The position numbers and the translations under genes were made by a program. From assembly GCA_003152795.1 (NCBI GenBank), contig PMBA01000123.1:1-10219 (forward strand): a stretch of 10,219 bases of DNA, given 5' to 3'. Position 1 is the stretch's first letter, and each line of letters begins with the position of its first letter. Origin of the DNA: Acidobacteriaceae bacterium. GTDB lineage: Bacteria > Acidobacteriota > Terriglobia > Terriglobales > Acidobacteriaceae. The notes under the pieces are model-generated. The model was not told where the DNA came from and did no database searches. It was given only the letters and a program-made list of their open reading frames with translations. This document shows positions 1,184 through 10,219 of the stretch, one piece after another.

Positions 1184-1957
1184 CTACTGGGCAATTACGT
1201 TTTGCTCCAGATCGAGGGCGGCTCGAGCGACATCCTCGGACCGGCCCAGATCGCGCCAATAATATTCATCGGCGCGGAAGGCGAGGATTTTTTCTGCCTG
1301 GGCAGCGAGGCGCAAATAGGAGGTGATGATGGAGAAGGCGCCGCTTTCGGTCATCATCGGGAGAAGGCGCGGAGAAATAACGTGGATGCCGGAAAAGGCC
1401 AAGGCGTGAAGTGGCCGGGGTGGGACCAATGACGATGGAACCAGCTCAGGCGGTTGATCGCTCCCGGATCGGCGACCGCAGAGCTGAAGCTGGTCGTCGA
1501 AGAGCAGGTATCGAGAGGTCTTGCGGTCTTGCACGGCCAGGGTGGCAAGAGCCCGATTGTCTTCATGAAACTGCACCATGCGGCGGAGATCGATGGCGCT
1601 GAGAACATCGACGTTGTGCACGATGAAAGGGGTGTCGAGACGGCTGGAATCCTGAGCAGAATGCTCCGCGAAAAAAGCAGCGGCTTTTTTCAGGCCACCA
1701 CCGGTGTCGAGCAAAACATCCTCACGCGAAATTTCAATACGCATGCCGAAGTTGTGGTTTTTTTTCAGGTACTCCACAATCATGTCGGCGAAGTGATGGA
1801 CGTTGATAATGACTTCGCGAATCCCGAAACCGCGCAGGCGAGAGAGCGTGATTTGGAGCAGCGTGCGGCCATTGATTTCGACCAGCGCTTTGGGACGATG
1901 GTCGGTGAGGGGTCGCAACCGTGAGCCAAGGCCAGCGGCGAGAATCATAGCTTTCAT
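1184..1957 (-). CDS. MurU-like sugar-1-phosphate nucleotidyltransferase
   Basis: Probable NTP:sugar-1-phosphate nucleotidyltransferase of 257 residues with a Rossmann-like GT-A fold. The N-terminus MKAMILAAGLGSRLRPLT is the nucleotide-binding signature, followed by RPKALVEINGRTLL, the usual sugar-nucleotidyltransferase lysine motif. DTGGGLKKA and the HNVDVLS segment (usually NGD) sit where the base-binding and metal-binding loops occur; FSGIHVI and YYWRDLGRSEDV match the C-terminal substrate and metal region. The length fits MurU (N-acetylmuramate alpha-1-phosphate uridylyltransferase) better than the longer RmlA or GlmU enzymes, and no acyltransferase repeat domain follows. The gene upstream is an AmgK-like kinase, the partner of MurU in cell-wall recycling, which supports that role. 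Mannose-1-phosphate guanylyltransferase remains possible. I chose ATG at 1957 over GTG at 1963 because the family begins at the MKAMILAAG segment; neither has a clear ribosome binding site. The gap to the kinase stop is about 30 bases, so an operon is likely. Confidence 0.82.
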   Translation of the reverse strand: MKAMILAAGLGSRLRPLTDHRPKALVEINGRTLLQITLSRLRGFGIREVIINVHHFADMIVEYLKKNHNFGMRIEISREDVLLDTGGGLKKAAAFFAEHSAQDSSRLDTPFIVHNVDVLSAIDLRRMVQFHEDNRALATLAVQDRKTSRYLLFDDQLQLCGRRSGSDQPPELVPSSLVPPRPLHALAFSGIHVISPRLLPMMTESGAFSIITSYLRLAAQAEKILAFRADEYYWRDLGRSEDVARAALDLEQNVIAQ

Positions 1958-1988: not shown

Positions 1989-3434
1989 CTAATTCAGGTG
2001 CTCCTGCTCGCGATGATGGACCAGCACGTCCACTCCATCGTGGGCGCGTAAATGTTCTGCCAATTGCTCGGCCAAATAGACCGAGCGATGCTGGCCGCCG
2101 GTGCACCCGAACGACACCATCAGGTGCTTGAAGCCGCGGCGCTGATAGGTGGTGACGCTCGCGTCCACGAGCGAAATGGTGCTGGCTAGAAACTGGCGCA
2201 CGCTTTCCTGCTGACTGAGATAGTCGATGACCAGCTGGTCTTTGCCGGTAAGGGTTTTGAAGCGTTCTTCGCGACCGGGATTGGGGAGGCTGCGGCCATC
2301 GAAAACGAAACCTCCGCCGTTTCCAGTGTCGTCATGGGGCAGGCCTCGATGGAATGAGAAGCTAAAGACCCGCACCGTCAACTTTTCCGTTTTTTCTGCG
2401 GCGGAGGTGAGGCCTTGCAGCTTCTCCGAGGCCACTATGCTCTTGAAGGCTTCCATCAGGGCCGGCAACGCGATGGGCAGCTCCACGTTGTGAAGCAGCC
2501 AGCGCAGGTTTCTCAAGGCATAGGGGACGCTTTGCAGGAAATGTTCCTTGCGCTCGTAAAAGCCGCGAAAGCCATAAGCGCCCATGGCCTGCATCATGCG
2601 AACGTAGACGAAGGCGTAGTAAAACTGCATGAACAGGGCGCGATCAAGATCGAGGAAACCGGCAAGGGCATCGAGGTAATGATCGAGCAGTTGCTGGCGC
2701 AGATCGGGAGGCAGGTCGGCTTTGGCATCGTAAAGAAGGGAGGCGATATCGTATTGCAGGGCGCCCCTGCGGCCTCCCTGGTAGTCGAGGAAAAATGGCT
2801 GGTCCTGGTCCAGAATTGGGCGCAGCATGATGTTGCGGGATTGGAAATCGCGGTAGAGAAAATAGTCGCGGCTGGCGGTCAACAGGAATCTCGTCAGGCG
2901 GCTGAAATCGTGTTCCAGAGCTTGTTCGTTGAAGGGAATGCCGGCAAGTCTCAGGAAGTAATACTTGAAATAATTCAGGTCCCACGCGATGGACTGGCGA
3001 TCGAAGCTGGCGCGCGGATAACAGACTTTGTAGTTCAAATCGCGACCAGCTTCGACTTGAAAGCGCGGCAACAGAGCGACAACTTTGCGATAGGCTGCAA
3101 CGGCCTCGGGAGCAATGGAGGCGCCGTTGCGATGGTTGGAGAGAAACTCAAAAAGCGTAGTGTTGCCGAAGTCTTCTTCCAGATACGCGCCATGGCTCAA
3201 ATCTTCGGCATAGATATCCGGTACGGGCAGGCCGTGCCGGCGGAAGTGGCGGGAGAATTCGAGGAAGGCGACATTCTCTTCGCGCACGTCATAGAGGATG
3301 CCGATCGCGCTGATGGTTTCCGTGGAAAGGCGGATAATTTTTCGGCCGGAGCCACCAAGTTGGCCCTGCAGCGGCTGCACTCGCTCAACCGGCGCGTGGA
3401 AATGCCGCTCAAAAAGTCTCTTGAGAACTTCCAT
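1989..3434 (-). CDS. AmgK-like sugar kinase fused to a RapZ C-terminal domain
   Basis: Two-domain cytoplasmic protein of 481 residues from ATG 3434. Residues about 5-325 are an aminoglycoside-phosphotransferase-type kinase close to AmgK, which phosphorylates MurNAc or GlcNAc at the anomeric position. The catalytic loop is YRDFQSRN (194-201), with Tyr where His is usual, and the metal-binding segment is LDYQGG (216-221). Residues about 352-481 match the C-terminal half of RapZ: SFSFHRGLP, FVFDGRSLPNP, TGKDQ and GCTGGQHRSVY (443-453) are the family's hallmark segments. The P-loop half of ordinary RapZ is absent and the kinase takes its place. In E. coli the RapZ C-terminal domain binds small RNAs and senses glucosamine-6-phosphate. 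The frame extends to TTG 3515 with an ATG at 3494; I prefer 3434 because the kinase homology starts there, but none of the three has a strong ribosome binding site. It precedes the MurU-like gene, which supports cell-wall sugar salvage. The domain calls are strong; the joint function is inferred. Confidence 0.85.
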   Translation of the reverse strand: MEVLKRLFERHFHAPVERVQPLQGQLGGSGRKIIRLSTETISAIGILYDVREENVAFLEFSRHFRRHGLPVPDIYAEDLSHGAYLEEDFGNTTLFEFLSNHRNGASIAPEAVAAYRKVVALLPRFQVEAGRDLNYKVCYPRASFDRQSIAWDLNYFKYYFLRLAGIPFNEQALEHDFSRLTRFLLTASRDYFLYRDFQSRNIMLRPILDQDQPFFLDYQGGRRGALQYDIASLLYDAKADLPPDLRQQLLDHYLDALAGFLDLDRALFMQFYYAFVYVRMMQAMGAYGFRGFYERKEHFLQSVPYALRNLRWLLHNVELPIALPALMEAFKSIVASEKLQGLTSAAEKTEKLTVRVFSFSFHRGLPHDDTGNGGGFVFDGRSLPNPGREERFKTLTGKDQLVIDYLSQQESVRQFLASTISLVDASVTTYQRRGFKHLMVSFGCTGGQHRSVYLAEQLAEHLRAHDGVDVLVHHREQEHLN

Positions 3435-3528: not shown

Positions 3529-4473
3529 GTGAAGACGCTGAACGAACTGTATTCATCGCTGACCGCGCGGCGGCGTTACGAAGTCTGGTTTGTGCGTCTT
3601 GGACTGGCGGACGGCAGCGGGGCGTGGTGGTTCCGATATTTGCTGATGAACCCTGGCCGGGGCGGTTGCGCAGGCGACCCGCGCGGGATGCCGGTCCAGG
3701 TGTGGGCCACGTGGTTTCCGCGGGACGGTAAAGCAGAGAGCTTTATTCAAGGACTTCCATTGGCCGGCCTGGAACTCAGCGCCCGCGGGCAAAGTCCATT
3801 CCACATGCAAATCGGCAACCATGGGGTCGGCGAGAACTCGTGCCGGGGAGAGTTGGAGGTTGAGGGGCATTCTATTTCGTGGGACCTGCAGTTTCGTTCC
3901 GCGTTTCGCGTCACGCTTAGCAACAAGGGTTGGATCGGATTTTCGCGAACGCCGCATTCCGATGGGCTTTTTTCCGGGCAGATCACGCTGGATGGCAAGA
4001 GTTTTGCGGGGGATCCATTGGGGTTTGGAGTGCAAGGGCACAATTGCGGATACCGGCATCGTAACTTCTGGACATGGACCCATGCCTATTTTCCCCGGCC
4101 CGATGCGCGTCCAAGCACGTTCGAAGCGTTGGTATACGAAATGCCATTCGGGCTGGTGTTTCGCAAAGCGGTGCTCTGGCATGAGGGGAAGGAGCACGAA
4201 TTCCGGAATCTGCAGGAGAGCAGGAGAGATGCGAACGAATTCGTGTGGAAATTTGGTTGTGCCACGAAGGATGGATTGCGACTGGAAGGAGCGATCAATG
4301 GCGGTGGTCCGAGCGTGCATCGTGTTCCCTACGTGAAGACCGATTGCGGGGGCAGATTTGAAGTCACGAACAACAGCCTGGCGAGGGCAGTCGTGCGCCT
4401 GGAACGGCGTGGCGGGGCGATTGAAACTTTAGAGACTGATATCGGGGCGGTGCTGGAGATGGTCGGCCGCTAG
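3529..4473 (+). CDS. CrtC/AttH-like lipocalin-type protein, function unknown
   Basis: A 314-residue protein rich in Trp, Phe, Tyr and Gly, with beta-strand-like alternation throughout. The opening RRRYEVWFVRLGLADGSGAW, the central GFGVQGHNCGYRHRNFWTW (about 165-183) and the closing beta-rich half resemble the double-lipocalin fold of CrtC (hydroxyneurosporene synthase)/AttH and tocopherol-cyclase-like proteins. The HNCGYRH block (171-177) corresponds to the conserved Gly-x-Asn/His-x-Gly segment of such folds and would line the cavity. There is no signal peptide or membrane helix. No carotenoid, quinone or tocopherol gene lies nearby, so no substrate can be proposed. It is transcribed away from the kinase-RapZ gene, about 95 bases apart, and nothing follows it on its strand for more than 1.7 kb. 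The start is GTG 3529; the preceding ATG at 3521 closes after three codons. The family placement is by pattern memory only and is moderate; that it is a real gene is well supported by its length. Confidence 0.65.
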   Translation: MKTLNELYSSLTARRRYEVWFVRLGLADGSGAWWFRYLLMNPGRGGCAGDPRGMPVQVWATWFPRDGKAESFIQGLPLAGLELSARGQSPFHMQIGNHGVGENSCRGELEVEGHSISWDLQFRSAFRVTLSNKGWIGFSRTPHSDGLFSGQITLDGKSFAGDPLGFGVQGHNCGYRHRNFWTWTHAYFPRPDARPSTFEALVYEMPFGLVFRKAVLWHEGKEHEFRNLQESRRDANEFVWKFGCATKDGLRLEGAINGGGPSVHRVPYVKTDCGGRFEVTNNSLARAVVRLERRGGAIETLETDIGAVLEMVGR

Positions 4474-4716: not shown

Positions 4717-5529
4717 TCATTCGGAGGATTGCGCCTTGGCCAGGCGCTCGGCGACGATACTGTAGACCGAAGGATTAAATGCCAATCCGATGTGAGTGCC
4801 GGGGACCTCAAAGTCGACTTCAGGATTCAGGGTCATGCAATAGTGCCAGTCGACGATGCCGTCATCACGGGTGTAAATGGCGGTTTCGACCATGGAGTCT
4901 GGAACTTTACGTTTCAACGAGTCAATAAAATTGCAGGTGCAGCGACCGGTGTAGCAGTCGGGCAGCACGCCCTGGCCATGCTCCTGCTGGATTCGCTGGC
5001 GAATGCCTTCGGCGGCGTGGAGAACGGTTCGATTGGTAACCGTGCCGCGAAATGGCGAGGCCAGGGTGATGACGGAAGCGACATCTCGCGGGCGCTGGCC
5101 GGCGACGGAGCGAGCGATCACGCCTCCGAGGCTGTGACCGATCAAGTGAATTCTGCGCTCGGTTTCGGTCAGGGCTTTTTCTATGGTCTGGTTCAGTCGT
5201 CGCTGGACGAGGAGATTCGGGCACTCGGCGTTGATACCGATGCCGGAAAAATAGGGGCGGTATCCGATGCGCTCCAGCCAGCCGTGGAGTTCCATCAAAT
5301 AAAGATCGGTACCCAGGAAACCGGGAATAATGACCACCGCGGAGTCATCGCCGCGAGGCACGCCGAAGCCGTAATAGACGGGGGTGGCGTGCAGGAAGAG
5401 AATCTCAGCCGCAAACAGAGCTTCTGTCCAAGGGGAGATGTCGGCTTCCAGAACGGGCGGCGGCTGAGTTTGCTGCTGAGCCTTCGATGAACCGGCTGCG
5501 CTTTTCTGTTTGCCAGGCAATTTCTTCAT
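4717..5529 (-). CDS. Alpha/beta hydrolase, lipase/esterase type
   Basis: A 270-residue serine hydrolase. After a low-complexity N-terminus rich in Lys, Gln and Pro (1-30) the core opens with VVIIPGFLGTD (65-75), the oxyanion-hole region. The nucleophile elbow is GHSLGG (131-136, Ser133). The acid is probably Asp223 or Asp227 in TRDDGIVDW, and the histidine is His246 in GTHIGLA. This arrangement is typical of EstA/LipA-type lipases acting on ester bonds of lipids or polyesters. There is no export signal, so it should act in the cytoplasm. It lies 62 bases behind the PHA regulator on the same strand and is probably co-transcribed, so attack on the PHA polymer, its oligomers or granule lipids is a fair guess. 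Several cysteines cluster at 192-199 (CYTGRCTC), which is unusual for a cytosolic lipase. The start is ATG 5529, preceded by only a weak ribosome binding site. The hydrolase call is strong; the substrate is unknown. Confidence 0.82.
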   Translation of the reverse strand: MKKLPGKQKSAAGSSKAQQQTQPPPVLEADISPWTEALFAAEILFLHATPVYYGFGVPRGDDSAVVIIPGFLGTDLYLMELHGWLERIGYRPYFSGIGINAECPNLLVQRRLNQTIEKALTETERRIHLIGHSLGGVIARSVAGQRPRDVASVITLASPFRGTVTNRTVLHAAEGIRQRIQQEHGQGVLPDCYTGRCTCNFIDSLKRKVPDSMVETAIYTRDDGIVDWHYCMTLNPEVDFEVPGTHIGLAFNPSVYSIVAERLAKAQSSE

Positions 5530-5591: not shown

Positions 5592-6134
5592 TTATACCCT
5601 GCCCTTTTGCTTCCGGCGTACGGCTGGTTTTCCTGGTGTTGGTTTTGCGAGCCGGGCCTCGAGTTCAGCGACTCGCTTGCGCAAGGCATCGAGTTCGGGC
5701 GCGGCCGGGGCTCGGGGCGGAGATGGGGGCGCGGCCGCGCCCATGAACTTCTTCATCATGTCTACGGGCGAGAGGATGGCAGACTGGACTTCGCCCAGGC
5801 GGCTCTGCACCGAATCCTGCACCTTCTGATAGGTGTCAAAAGCGGACTTCAGATACCACATGACGAACTCCTGCCGCACTTCGTCGGAGGCGACGATGAG
5901 TTGACGAAGGAGTTCGAGGGGCAGGCCTGTCGGCTTGCCCTTTGCGTCTTCAGTAATGATTTGTGTCAGGGTGACGCGGGTGAGATCATGGCCGGTCCTG
6001 GCATCGACTACCTTGACATTTCTACCTTCGCGGACGAACCGGGCGATGTCGTCGAGATTGACATACTGACTGCTCGAGGAATCGTACAACCTGCGATTCC
6101 CATATTTTCTGATCAGGACGGGAGCGGGGTTCAT
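5592..6134 (-). CDS. phaR: PHA synthesis regulator, PhaR-type repressor
   Basis: A 180-residue DNA-binding regulator of polyhydroxyalkanoate storage. Residues 7-62 carry the family's DNA-binding signature: LIRKYGNRRLYD (7-18), SQYVNLDDIARFVREG (22-37), VVDARTGHDLTR (42-53) and TLTQIITED (55-63). Residues 68-100 (GLPLELLRQLI, then VRQEFVMWYLKSAF) match the PHB-accumulation regulatory segment thought to bind polymer. The C-terminal third is Ala/Pro-rich and ends in a heptad-like segment (149-163) followed by a basic tail (about 168-180). In the known model, PhaR represses the phasin gene until it is titrated onto new PHA granules. The divergent gene here is phasin-like and its leader has a matching operator, so the model fits. 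The start is ATG 6134; an upstream ATG near 6148 closes after five codons. The hydrolase gene follows 62 bases downstream. The assignment is strong. Confidence 0.92.
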   Translation of the reverse strand: MNPAPVLIRKYGNRRLYDSSSSQYVNLDDIARFVREGRNVKVVDARTGHDLTRVTLTQIITEDAKGKPTGLPLELLRQLIVASDEVRQEFVMWYLKSAFDTYQKVQDSVQSRLGEVQSAILSPVDMMKKFMGAAAPPSPPRAPAAPELDALRKRVAELEARLAKPTPGKPAVRRKQKGRV

Positions 6135-6164
6135 GCGGATCGATCCATACGAAATTCACCCTTG

Positions 6165-6175
6165 CTGCTGCGCAC
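6165..6175. promoter_or_regulatory. Imperfect PhaR operator-like site near phaR
   Basis: CTGC-TGC-GCAC matches the reported PhaR half-site pattern CTGC-N3-GCAG at seven of eight defined positions. It lies about 30 bases upstream of the phaR start codon, where binding could give autoregulation. A single imperfect match this short could be chance. Confidence 0.4.
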
Positions 6176-6191
6176 AAAACACAAATACATA

Positions 6192-6220
6192 TTGACACAA
6201 TCGATTGGGAATCGTACAGT
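6192..6220 (+). promoter_or_regulatory. Sigma-70-type promoter for the phasin gene
   Basis: A full-consensus -35 box TTGACA (6192-6197) is followed, after exactly 17 bases, by TACAGT (6215-6220), a four-of-six match to the -10 box. Transcription would start near 6227, giving a leader of about 33 bases before the start codon at 6260. The operator at 6229-6243 would lie just past the start point, where a bound repressor blocks polymerase. Confidence 0.65.
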
Positions 6221-6228
6221 TTAGCTGA

Positions 6229-6243
6229 TGCTGCAATGCAGCA
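6229..6243. promoter_or_regulatory. Palindromic PhaR operator upstream of the phasin gene
   Basis: TGCTGC-AAT-GCAGCA is a perfect six-base inverted repeat. Its core CTGC-N3-GCAG (6231-6241) equals the consensus reported for PhaR of Rhodobacter sphaeroides, and the Paracoccus PhaR target is also TGC-rich. It lies between the predicted transcription start and the ribosome binding site of the phasin gene and next to divergent phaR. This is the expected place for phasin repression by PhaR. Confidence 0.75.
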
Positions 6244-6246
6244 AAA

Positions 6247-6252
6247 TGGAGG
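6247..6252 (+). promoter_or_regulatory. Strong ribosome binding site of the phasin gene
   Basis: TGGAGG followed by seven bases and ATG at 6260. This decides the start: the frame stays open upstream to 6236, but that codon lies inside the operator palindrome and has no such site. Confidence 0.8.
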
Positions 6253-6259
6253 TACTAAA

Positions 6260-7183
6260 ATGCCAACGACGGTAGGTCCTCGAAGTCATTCCGGGGAGTC
6301 ATCTTTTGTCAATCTTGTGTCAGGTTGGGCGCAGCAGGGAGTCCAGAGCTTCTTTGCGACGCAACGGATCCTGCTGGATCTGGCGATGCGGCAGAACGCA
6401 AGCCTGATGCACTCTCTGCGGCAACAATTGTCCGATCCGAATCATTCCCCGACTGCCATTCTGAGCGAAGTGGCTGCCGAGAGTGTGTCGAACTTTATTG
6501 AAGGGCAAAAAGTTCTACTTGATCTGGGGCTAAAACAGAACGAAATCCTGATGACCGGCGTGAAGGACCGTGTGGGAGACTGGCCGGCAGCGGAGGCGGT
6601 TACGGACCTGCTGCGGCGCAGCGTGGAAACGTTCATCGGGATGCAGCATGAGTTCCTGAAGATTGCCGGCAAGCAAACCCACACCTGGGTAGAGGCAGCC
6701 AAAGCCGGGAAGCCGTACCAGGGCGAGCAAATGGTGGAACTGGCGCGCGAAGCGATGGAGAACTTCGTGAAAGCCCAGAAACACTTCATGGACGTGATCG
6801 CCGAGGAAACCGCCAAGGCAACTGGCGGCAAGCACACCAATGGCGTCAAGAGAATGAAGAAAACGGAGTTGTCGCAACTGGCGCGGCATGCCACTGAGAC
6901 TTTCATCGAAGCGCAGAGGAAGCTGGTGGATGTAGCCGGGAAGCAGATGAACGCCAACGTGAAAACCGCGGGCAAGACTCTGGAACTGTTGCGGCCATTT
7001 CCGTTCGTGCCGTTAGCAGAGTTGACGCGGGAAGGTGTAAAGAGCTACGTCGACGCCCAAAAAGAGCTGATGGAGGTCATGGTGAAGCCGGGTGGCGAGC
7101 ACAAACCGGCGCACAAGACCGCACACAAGACAGCACATCGGGCGAAACGGTCGCCGAAGAAGCACGCCGTGGCAGCAGCCTAA
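6260..7183 (+). CDS. Phasin-like granule protein with six helical repeats and a basic tail
   Basis: A 307-residue protein that looks like an unusually long phasin, the amphipathic coat of PHA granules. It holds six copies of an approximately 30-residue helical unit of the form F/Y-[IVF]-x-x-Q-[KRH]-x-[LF]-[LMV]. The invariant glutamines are at 35, 83, 129, 173, 219 and 267, spaced 48, 46, 44, 46 and 48 residues. Many units begin with LAREAMENF-like segments. Typical phasins have a single such domain and about 110-200 residues. The C-terminus (about 281-301) is Lys/His/Ala-rich with KPAH-KTAH-KTAH repeats, then RAKRSPKK. This resembles histone H1-like and PhaF-like tails that bind DNA and help share granules between daughter cells. 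No signal peptide or membrane helix is present. A consensus promoter, a PhaR-type operator and a strong ribosome binding site precede it, phaR is divergent, and a hairpin terminator follows. The phasin role is inferred from repeat pattern and context. Confidence 0.82.
   Translation: MPTTVGPRSHSGESSFVNLVSGWAQQGVQSFFATQRILLDLAMRQNASLMHSLRQQLSDPNHSPTAILSEVAAESVSNFIEGQKVLLDLGLKQNEILMTGVKDRVGDWPAAEAVTDLLRRSVETFIGMQHEFLKIAGKQTHTWVEAAKAGKPYQGEQMVELAREAMENFVKAQKHFMDVIAEETAKATGGKHTNGVKRMKKTELSQLARHATETFIEAQRKLVDVAGKQMNANVKTAGKTLELLRPFPFVPLAELTREGVKSYVDAQKELMEVMVKPGGEHKPAHKTAHKTAHRAKRSPKKHAVAAA
7103..7138 (+). repeat. Three 12-base coding repeats, KPAH/KTAH/KTAH
   Basis: Three consecutive 12-base units in frame encode KPAH, KTAH and KTAH within the basic tail of the phasin-like protein. 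Codons differ between units (AAA CCG GCG CAC; AAG ACC GCA CAC; AAG ACA GCA CAT), so this is not a recent perfect duplication: the protein pattern has been kept while the DNA drifted. Confidence 0.7.
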
Positions 7184-8132: not shown

Positions 8133-10219
8133 ATGATCACGCATGAAGCAGCGCAGGAGCGGATTCCGATCCCGCTGGCTGCGGAGAGTCTAAGTGAAGA
8201 ACGAATTGCCACCCTGGATCGACTAGTCAGTCAAGCCCGAACCGCCGCCGCCGTCTTTACCCAATTCAGTCAGGAGGACGTTGACCGCATTGTGAAGGCG
8301 ATGGTTCTGGCGGGCCTGGAAAACGCTCAATATCTTGCCCGGCTTGCGTTTGAGGAAACCAGGCTGGGAGTGATGGAAGACAAGGTCATCAAGAACATGG
8401 TGGCCACGGAGTTCGTCTACAACTACATAAAGGATAAGCGCACGGTTGGGGTCATTCGCGAATTTCCGGAGCGCGATCTGGTAGAGGTGGCGGAACCGAT
8501 CGGGGTCATCTTCTCGATCACGCCGATTACGAACCCGACTTCCACGGTGCTTTTCAAATGCATCATGGCTATCAAGACGCGCAACGCGGTGATTTTCAGT
8601 CCTCATCCAAGCGCGTGGCGGTGCTGCTCCGAGGCGGTGAGGATCATGTATGAAACCGCGATGAAGCATGGCGCGCCCGAAGGTGTATTCAGCTGCCTGG
8701 AGTCGCACACGCTGCTGGACAACGCCTACCTGATGCGGCACAAAGACGTGGGCCTGATCGACGCCACGGGCGGGCCGGGCGCGGTGAAAGCCGCCTATAG
8801 TTCGGGCAAACCGGCGCTGGGCGTCGGGCCGGGCAACACGCCGGTCTACCTGGAAAAAACGGCGGACCTGAGTACGGCGGTGACGGACATCATCCTCTCC
8901 AAGACTTTCGATAACGGAACGATCTGCGCTTCGGAGCAAACGGCGGTGATCGACGATGAGATTTACGACGTCGTGCTGACGAAATTCGCCGAGTTGGGCA
9001 CGCACATCTGCAACGAAAAAGAGACGGAACTGCTGGCGCGCACGGTGATCGATCCCAAGACCGGGTTCATGCAACCCATGGCGGTCGGGCAGAAGGCTGG
9101 CGATATCGCCCGTCTTGCCGGTATTTCCGTGAAGGCGGGAACCAAACTATTGATTGCGCCGATTCAAGGCGTGGGCCGCGGACATCCTCTGTCGGTGGAG
9201 AAATTGTTCCCCGTGCTGTCGGTCTATCGGGCGAAATCCGTGGATGAGGCGCTGAAGGTATGCGTCGATGTGAATCACGCCGGCGGACTGGGGCATACGG
9301 CGGTGATTTTCTCGCGTAACGAGGAGGTCATCCGAAGGTTCAGCGAGGTGATCAACGCGGGGCGGATCCTGGTGAACTCGCCGGGCTCAGTCGGAGCGGT
9401 GGGCGGCGTTTACAACGATCTGGCGCCTACTTTTTCATTCGGATGCGGCACCGGCGGCGGCAACAGCACCACCGACAACGTAAATATCTATCACTACCTC
9501 AATATCAAGCGAGTGGCTCGGAGGACCCAAGCCCATATGTGGTTCCGAGTTCCCAATCAGATTTATTTCAACATGAACGCGGTGGAGAACATACACCAGT
9601 TTCCATCGCAATCGACCATCATTATTACCAGCCCGGCACTGGAACAATTCGGCCACGTGGATATCGTCCGGCGCTACATTCCCGAGGGGACCCATGTTCA
9701 CGTCTCGGTCATTCCGGATGCGGAACCTGAGGTCAAGGTAGTGATGCAGGGAGTAGAGGCGCTGAATTTCTACAAGGCGGACCAGATCATCGCGCTGGGC
9801 GGCGGGTCGGTGATCGATGCGGCGAAGATCATGAAACTGAAATACGAGTCGCCGGACGCTGACCTGGAAGAACTGACCGTACCGTTTCTGGATCTGCGCA
9901 AGCGCGTGGTCCAGTACCCGACGGAGAAAGTCAACCGGGCGCGGCTGGTTGCCATCTCCACCACCAGCGGAACGGGGAGCGAAGTTACTCCGTTTGCCGT
10001 CCTGACGGACAAGGAACGCGGGCGCAAGGTGACTTTGGCGGACTACTCGCTGACTCCGGATGTAGCGATCGTCGATCCGCAATTTGTAATGTCGATGCCA
10101 AAGGGCCTTACCGCCGATACCGGAATCGACTGCCTGACCCACGCGCTGGAGGCGGCCGTTTCCAGTTTCGCTTCGGCGTACACCGACTGCAATGCGATGC
10201 AGGCGATCCGGATGGTGTT
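8133..10219 (+). CDS. adhE: Bifunctional aldehyde-alcohol dehydrogenase AdhE (3' end outside window)
   Basis: Two-step enzyme that reduces acetyl-CoA to acetaldehyde and then ethanol with NADH, and can run in reverse. The window holds 695 codons of a protein usually near 870-900 residues, without a stop. The N-terminal part (about 15-450) is a CoA-acylating aldehyde dehydrogenase: EPIGVIFSITPITNPTS, GGPGAVKAAYSSGKPALGVG and FDNGTICASEQ, with the catalytic Cys at residue 265. A linker (GGGNSTTDNV, then VARRTQ) leads to the iron-dependent alcohol dehydrogenase from about residue 469 (MWFRVPNQIYF). There, GGGSVID (556-562) binds NAD, TTSGTGSEVTPFAVLTD follows, and Asp666 and His670 in the GIDCLTH segment are two metal ligands. 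The remaining metal histidines lie beyond the edge. ATG 8133 follows a run of six G (8122-8127) at a five-base distance; the ATG at 8120 is out of frame. No frameshift is seen. AdhE enzymes usually form long filaments called spirosomes. Confidence 0.96.
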   Translation, partial: MITHEAAQERIPIPLAAESLSEERIATLDRLVSQARTAAAVFTQFSQEDVDRIVKAMVLAGLENAQYLARLAFEETRLGVMEDKVIKNMVATEFVYNYIKDKRTVGVIREFPERDLVEVAEPIGVIFSITPITNPTSTVLFKCIMAIKTRNAVIFSPHPSAWRCCSEAVRIMYETAMKHGAPEGVFSCLESHTLLDNAYLMRHKDVGLIDATGGPGAVKAAYSSGKPALGVGPGNTPVYLEKTADLSTAVTDIILSKTFDNGTICASEQTAVIDDEIYDVVLTKFAELGTHICNEKETELLARTVIDPKTGFMQPMAVGQKAGDIARLAGISVKAGTKLLIAPIQGVGRGHPLSVEKLFPVLSVYRAKSVDEALKVCVDVNHAGGLGHTAVIFSRNEEVIRRFSEVINAGRILVNSPGSVGAVGGVYNDLAPTFSFGCGTGGGNSTTDNVNIYHYLNIKRVARRTQAHMWFRVPNQIYFNMNAVENIHQFPSQSTIIITSPALEQFGHVDIVRRYIPEGTHVHVSVIPDAEPEVKVVMQGVEALNFYKADQIIALGGGSVIDAAKIMKLKYESPDADLEELTVPFLDLRKRVVQYPTEKVNRARLVAISTTSGTGSEVTPFAVLTDKERGRKVTLADYSLTPDVAIVDPQFVMSMPKGLTADTGIDCLTHALEAAVSSFASAYTDCNAMQAIRMV

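Follow-up and report, generated by a model that had tools for sequence, protein, structure and literature searches.

The window, i.e. the whole stretch of DNA analysed here (10,219 nucleotides, contig PMBA01000123.1 of the Acidobacteriaceae bacterium assembly GCA_003152795.1), carries on its minus strand a gene in which an AmgK-type kinase is fused to the C-terminal domain (CTD) of RapZ, and downstream of it a gene for a MurU-like protein. The features of the locus are the following:

1989..3434, minus strand: fusion gene, AmgK-type kinase plus RapZ C-terminal domain, 481 aa (translation, Pfam, solved-structure search)
2415..3434, minus strand: kinase part, residues 1-340 (Pfam APH match at residues 54-257; 3csv over 13-323)
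2832..2855, minus strand: kinase catalytic loop YRDFQSRN, residues 194-201
2772..2789, minus strand: motif LDYQGG, residues 216-221
2004..2378, minus strand: RapZ C-terminal domain PF22740, residues 353-477
2310..2324, minus strand: fusion-type insertion G-[N/H]-G-G-G, residues 371-375, immediately preceding the strand that corresponds to RapZ YVFD
2274..2276, minus strand: Gly387, at the position of E. coli RapZ His190
2082..2105, minus strand: phosphate-binding loop CTGGQHRS (C-X5-R), residues 444-451, matching E. coli C247-S254
1184..1957, minus strand: gene for a MurU-like sugar-1-phosphate uridylyltransferase, 31 bases downstream of the fusion gene, start assumed at ATG 1957

The stop codon of the fusion gene occupies positions 1989-1991, and the ATG at 3434 was assumed as its start (in the program-made list of open reading frames the frame begins upstream, at TTG 3515); the plus-strand frame over the same span is interrupted by three stops. 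At E <= 0.001 Pfam recognizes in the protein the families APH (38.7 bits, cut-off 23.2) and PF22740 (123.3 bits, cut-off 27, profile positions 2-120 of 121) and no others. In the search of solved structures, residues 13-323 match 3csv, an aminoglycoside phosphotransferase, and residues 347-477 match E. coli RapZ. The NCBIfam model of RapZ (NF003828) is matched over positions 147-277 of 278 with 118.1 bits, below its equivalog cut-off of 244. The N-terminal P-loop (Walker A/B) domain of canonical RapZ is absent, Pfam and NCBIfam giving APH/AmgK in its place. A separate canonical RapZ is also present in the source genome (82% complete, 475 contigs). The earlier note, made from the letters alone, had described one uninterrupted frame with an AmgK-type kinase and a complete RapZ CTD, the P-loop half being missing; all of this agrees with the profile and structure matches, and the four motifs it quoted are found in the translation.

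Failure to find the RapZ CTD by profile, or a sequencing error joining two separate genes, had been named beforehand as the points on which the fusion could fail. The profile was found, and a survey of the genus showed that 22 of 24 genomes hold a second RapZ_C match in an open frame of 455-577 aa; one of the exceptions (G015) has a fragment at a contig end, and the other (G005, 71% complete) has none. Furthermore, 99 distinct fusions were collected (from 120 or 135 fusion entries, after removal of identical stretches). The recurrence of the frame in the genus and the size of this collection confirm that the fusion is a real gene and not an assembly artefact joining two genes. Besides the 99, a second set was selected by homology: a scan of genome contigs matched at least 589 stretches, of which 578 were confirmed and the best 80 kept, giving 81 loci together with the window.

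The kinase half retains its catalytic motifs. RDFQSRN is invariant across 27 aligned kinase parts, and so are D217, Q219, G220 and G221 of LDYQGG, which we take to be the usual metal-binding motif of APH kinases. RDFQ[S/A]RN is found in 80 of the 81 homology-selected loci; in the remaining one (L078, which for the same reason stands outside the 99) an assembly gap hides the motif. Two NCBIfam AmgK models match all 27 kinase parts and are the only NCBIfam families common to all of them, the window's own kinase part scoring 55.8 against a cut-off of 500. Like AmgK of Pseudomonas putida (MurNAc/GlcNAc 1-kinase), the fusion has an APH-family kinase with intact catalytic motifs whose gene is followed by a MurU-like gene; in contrast to AmgK, it has an added C-terminal RapZ-type domain, and the whole protein reaches 54.4 bits against 500, below the equivalog level. 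Unfused relatives of the kinase (28-29% identity) were found in four genomes of the Acidobacteriota set (G227, G322, G326, G332).

For the downstream gene, the best NCBIfam family is MurU (125.1 bits, cut-off 250) and the best solved structure 4y7t; heptose-1-phosphate guanosyltransferase and phosphocholine cytidylyltransferase are matched more weakly. In 72 of the 81 loci the fusion gene is followed, on its own strand, by a MurU-like frame scoring 100 bits or more, which overlaps it by four bases (by the assumed start) in 37 of the 72; among the 72 are a frameshifted copy (L082) and a locus with MurU 325 bases away (L098). Of the nine loci that do not have it, three (L077, L080, L102) are at or near a contig end and six belong to Bacteroidota. 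When all neighbours within six genes were clustered over the 81 loci, MurU was the only family widely common across phyla. The next most common cluster (9 of 81 loci) runs on the opposite strand over the position of MurU and looks like a shadow frame, and a seemingly three-part single frame of kinase, CTD and MurU in L082 leaves the CTD inside the phosphate loop and is a frameshift. The conserved MurU-like neighbour supports the link to MurNAc/GlcNAc salvage that the earlier note had drawn, and it is well supported that the CTD is one component of a cassette for cell-wall-sugar salvage, consisting of likely counterparts of AmgK and MurU plus a third part.

Directly upstream of the fusion gene lies a divergent frame of 314 aa (3529-4473, plus strand), which matches no Pfam or NCBIfam family at E <= 0.001. 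It is followed by an alpha/beta hydrolase gene (4717-5529), a PhaR-like polyhydroxyalkanoate repressor gene (97.3 bits, NCBIfam cut-off 109.45) with an adjoining, divergent gene that weakly matches a PHA synthase subunit (20.6 bits, cut-off 25.7; both within 5592-7183), and an AdhE-type bifunctional acetaldehyde-CoA/alcohol dehydrogenase gene (8133-10217, 921 bits, cut-off 951) cut by the window end.

The same three parts also occur as separate genes. In a sample of 296 genomes of the phylum of Draconibacterium (Bacteroidota), 36 have the domain. Its frame is 478-524 codons long in 27 of them, one of which has an internal stop within the match, and 134-155 codons long in the other 9. Of these 36 loci 30 were obtained, and 26 have the kinase in the same frame; MurU is downstream in 20 of the 26 and not in six, Draconibacterium orientale belonging both to these six and to the six MurU-less Bacteroidota loci among the best 80. 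When 14-15 kb around each of the nine short frames were examined, seven were found to have genes for the kinase, the CTD and the MurU-like protein in that order on one strand. Pfam confirms all three for two of the seven (L218, L221), and for the two split-cassette neighbours that were scanned MurU comes out as the top family. RDFQ[S/A]RN and a DYQ/DFQ motif are present in the split kinases; compared with two fusion kinases, six of the seven show 26-34% identity, and that of L221 45-50%. In L221 (5682-7810) nothing but a stop codon lies between kinase and CTD, which share one frame, and the MurU-like gene has an overlap with that of the CTD; this locus is an apparent intermediate between the fused and the split forms. 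In L215-L220, a LOG/lysine-decarboxylase-like gene and a DUF6702 gene follow the split cassette (by Pfam in L218, by similar-looking frames in the others). The other two short frames, L214 7083-7493 and L222 6935-7336 (both minus strand, Bacteroidota, PF22740 by Pfam), are stand-alone fusion-type CTDs with no kinase or MurU nearby. In the protein collection, 45 of the 120 listed CTD-profile matches (of 7496) begin with Met and are no longer than 150 aa; the Gly-rich insertion is present in 42 of these short proteins and NPGR in all 45.

Within Acidobacteriota, the phylum of the window, the fusion gene is patchy: of 297 evenly drawn genomes, 11 contain two or more RapZ_C matches, a count that would miss genomes with the fusion alone, and seven of the 11 (G000, G105, G114, G147, G195, G258, G277) carry a full-length fusion. 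Outside it, the titles of the best 80 contig records name, besides Acidobacteria, Calditrichaeota, KSB1, 'Deferribacteres', Elusimicrobia, Opitutia/Opitutae, Bacteroidetes, Ignavibacteriales and Neomarinimicrobiota; by these titles the architecture is found in at least eight phyla. Two protein searches gave at least 8000 homologues each, and among the 120 listed of each nearly all combine PF22740 with PF01636. Most of those listed are nameless, others being called 'aminoglycoside/choline kinase family phosphotransferase', 'phosphotransferase' or 'RapZ C-terminal domain-containing protein'. The fusion is therefore widespread and already in the databases, as the earlier note had supposed when it spoke of automatic names, and partly under a misleading name (see below). 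No functional study of such fusions was found in the open-licence literature, and we know of no activity for any of them.

In a tree of the CTDs (51 of the 99 fusions and 34 canonical CTDs, a short alignment), a single branch separates the fusion from the canonical domains (100/99 support; present in all of 200 bootstrap trees). A single origin of the fusion-type CTD is the simplest reading of this alignment, and the fusion is probably old. Among 40 fusion genomes, nearly all of them from other lineages (their completeness is not given), 15 have more than one RapZ_C match and 25 a single one, in a fusion-sized frame; therefore the fusion does not seem to depend on canonical RapZ.

The fusion CTD shares PF22740, including the loop C-T-G-G-x-H-R-S, with RapZ (E. 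coli; YvcJ in Bacillus), whereas it has neither the P-loop N-terminal domain nor the basic tail of canonical RapZ, carries Gly for His190 and Arg/Lys for Trp191, contains the extra G-[N/H]-G-G-G and falls into a separate clade. The insertion is present in 81/81 homology-selected loci and 99/99 distinct fusions and in none of the 33 proteins classed as canonical RapZ; note that these 33 are not all that were fetched, seven loci (L009, L016, L148, L149, L151, L153, L155) having been left unclassed, several of them with RapZ-like P-loops. Equally constant is Gly at the His190 position (81/81 and 99/99); among the 33 canonical proteins this site is occupied by His in 21, Asn in 6, Tyr in 5 and Phe in 1. 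Position 191 is Arg or Lys in 98/99 fusions. In E. coli RapZ, as described in PMC5737377, the YVFD strand mediates the self-contact of the CTD and W191 touches the P-loop domain; this contact partner of W191 is missing from the fusion.

The phosphate-binding loop is retained. In the window's protein the equivalents of the pocket residues C247, T248, G249, H252 and R253 are kept and H190 is replaced by Gly. The loop Cys is present in all 79 homology-selected loci in which the region is intact (78 CTGG, and CTAG in L120), a count that leaves out L077, cut by the contig, and L082, which is frameshifted. The 99 distinct fusions keep, in E. coli numbering, C247, T248, G249 (98/99), G250, H252, R253 and S254, partly by selection: they were chosen by a pattern demanding the loop Cys and HR, so that 99/99 is uninformative at these residues, for which the homology-selected loci are used. 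CTGGxHRS is also found in 120/120 listed CTD-profile matches of the 7496, the candidates for that search having been picked by shared words. C-X2-G-X2-R-S is the motif of cysteine-dependent phosphatases, and at this short motif the loop of the fusion CTD appears to resemble enzymes of the PTP type, whereas similarity at the profile level was not found. A profile and structure search with the CTD at E <= 10 gave only RapZ chains and two weak matches to hydroxylamine reductase (E 0.55 and 0.93); in a Pfam scan over 30 CTD members PF22740 was the only family matched by more than one, and no phosphatase family appeared; furthermore, neither Pfam nor NCBIfam finds in the fusion protein a HAD-type phosphatase domain as in MupP. 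The pocket of RapZ has been likened to the phosphatase loop of Cys-dependent tyrosine phosphatases, and hydrolysis of GlcN6P has been proposed there as a hypothesis (PMC7199280). PMC9841335 reports that C247A and C247S each abolish the activity of E. coli RapZ, that H190A abolishes its function, and that the crystal structure of the CTD obtained in the presence of GlcN6P probably contains a 'chemically transformed product'.

In Pseudomonas, AnmK makes MurNAc-6-phosphate, MupP dephosphorylates it, AmgK phosphorylates C1 and MurU converts the product to UDP-MurNAc, as outlined in PMC5371407. AmgK and MurU of Tannerella forsythia permit labelling with MurNAc probes in E. coli (PMC13041923). The present cassette shares with the Pseudomonas pathway a kinase and a uridylyltransferase, likely counterparts of AmgK and MurU; the third component, in contrast, is a RapZ-type domain, fused or encoded next to them, and not the HAD-type phosphatase MupP, whose role it would take. 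AnmK is found above the family cut-off in 35 of the 40 fusion genomes that come nearly all from other lineages and is absent in 5. MurQ gives a strong match (E at most 1e-60) in 28 of the 40 and exceeds the curated cut-off in 19. Nine of the 12 genomes with no strong MurQ match have AnmK, i.e. a Pseudomonas-like gene set, and therefore their MurNAc-6-phosphate needs another outlet. In the window's phylum AnmK is above the cut-off in 20/22 fusion genomes and in 40/44 genomes with no fusion (the 66 were picked partly for having the fusion, and 22/66 is not its frequency); the two fusion genomes that do not have it are G258 (identical to G340, also in the set of 40) and G040 (100% complete). MurQ is above the cut-off in all 22 fusion genomes. 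In this phylum, no link of the fusion to the presence of AnmK or MurQ was found, both being near universal with or without it. These numbers allow a phosphatase role of the CTD and do not require it. In the window's own genome AnmK consists of two adjacent pieces in separate frames (G000 C34:1050-2160; L122, L123), being one piece in most relatives; this is either an assembly frameshift or a broken gene.

We suggest, tentatively and with somewhat less than even confidence, that the fusion is a salvage-cassette gene encoding a phosphatase-kinase that turns MurNAc-6-phosphate into MurNAc-1-phosphate for MurU. The CTD would bind a sugar-6-phosphate in its Cys-X5-Arg loop, our best guess being MurNAc-6-phosphate made by AnmK, and would remove the phosphate by catalysis in this loop, the step before the kinase. 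The N-terminal half would then phosphorylate MurNAc (perhaps GlcNAc) at C1, and the MurU-like neighbour would convert the sugar-1-phosphate to UDP-MurNAc, bypassing MurA/MurB. One chain would thus do the jobs of MupP and AmgK, two proteins in Pseudomonas. The linkage to MurU, the split genes, the kept Cys loop, the literature on E. coli RapZ and the genomes with AnmK and no strong MurQ match all point in this direction. Several observations speak against it: beyond the short loop motif the CTD matches no phosphatase family or structure; MurQ in most fusion genomes gives MurNAc-6-phosphate another fate there; AnmK is missing in some fusion genomes and does not track the fusion; and there are loci with no MurU, as well as the partnerless CTDs of L214 and L222. 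The scores of the kinase and MurU, far below the NCBI equivalog cut-offs, likewise appear to weaken it.

The main rival, which we regard as a real possibility, is that the CTD is a sensor that binds an amino-sugar phosphate (GlcN6P or MurNAc-6-phosphate) with no turnover and switches the AmgK-type kinase on or off, in the fusion or as a partner protein. The E. coli CTD binds GlcN6P and RapZ acts as a sensor according to PMC7073468 and PMC9841335, the former describing a high conservation of the GlcN6P site across diverse bacteria; the fusions retain most residues of the pocket, and attachment to the kinase of the committed salvage step would suit feedback control. However, the position of His190, needed in E. 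coli RapZ, is Gly in 81/81 homology-selected loci (canonical RapZ also varies here, with His in 21/33), and this weakens a switch run by GlcN6P exactly as in E. coli. The CTD also stands as a gene of its own in nine Bacteroidota genomes, and stand-alone CTD genes beside kinase and MurU fit a separate enzyme at least as well as the allosteric switch considered in the earlier note. Finally, a loop residue other than Cys was never seen where the selection did not demand Cys.

It is unlikely that the kinase and the nucleotidyltransferase act on another sugar or alcohol (e.g. heptose, or choline as in LicA/LicC), with the CTD dephosphorylating or sensing that compound. The low scores of both enzymes relative to the AmgK and MurU equivalogs, the weaker matches of the neighbour to guanosyl- and cytidylyltransferases and the absence of AnmK from some fusion genomes would agree with it, whereas the AmgK models are the sole NCBIfam families matched by all 27 kinase parts, and MurU is both the best family and the source of the best structure for the neighbour; it is also the top-scoring family in both split-cassette neighbours that were scanned.

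Very improbable is the other role named in the earlier note, that of an RNA-binding regulator; the CTD would then bind small RNAs, as it does in E. coli, and couple wall-gene expression to salvage. The E. coli domain contacts GlmZ, partly via the same pocket (PMC9841335), and some basic contacts remain in the fusions (R184 in 99/99, Lys/Arg at position 196 in 78/99), whereas E. coli R238 is Phe in 99/99 and K251 is Gln in 88/99 (Gln being usual there in canonical relatives too, and not fusion-specific), the net charge of the C-terminal tail is at most zero in 90/99 (a rough cut, no tail being found in 23), the fusions lack the P-loop half of RapZ from which the RNA-binding tetramer is built, and PMC7073468 states that the RNA-binding domain is restricted to Enterobacteriaceae. 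PMC5737377 gives K270, K281, R282 and K283 as the basic C-terminal RNA-binding residues of E. coli RapZ; such a basic end is missing from the window's protein, which ends HREQEHLN. GlmZ had no match in any of 31 genomes, at most 52 candidates being scored per genome and the E. coli control being positive, and Rfam finds no family in the window. Given the missing basic tail, the replacement of some RNA contacts and the failure to find GlmZ in the 31 genomes, RNA binding by the fusion CTD is unlikely.

Returning to the phosphatase-kinase, a broader proposal seems possible, which we advance with clear reserve: that the RapZ CTD began as a cysteine-dependent amino-sugar-6-phosphatase of wall recycling, that it was recruited to RNA binding in E. 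coli only late, and that the fusion is a bifunctional MurNAc-6-phosphate phosphatase/MurNAc 1-kinase, which replaces MupP without being homologous to it and completes the MurU pathway in at least eight phyla. Metabolite-controlled signalling has been speculated to be the primordial function of RapZ (PMC7073468). The fusion and its stand-alone relatives make the primordial role testable with one small purified protein, as they offer a CTD with neither P-loop partner nor RNA-binding tail, within or beside a MurNAc-type salvage cassette. As far as our searches go, the three-part cassette in its fused and split forms and the consistent change of the pocket are new. The proposal predicts the missing phosphatase step for MurU-type recycling outside Proteobacteria. 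Likewise, 'RNase adapter RapZ' would be an incorrect automatic name for some of the proteins deposited; this name stands on 7 of the 120 listed Bacteroidota-type fusions, though a kinase domain replaces the P-loop half in them.
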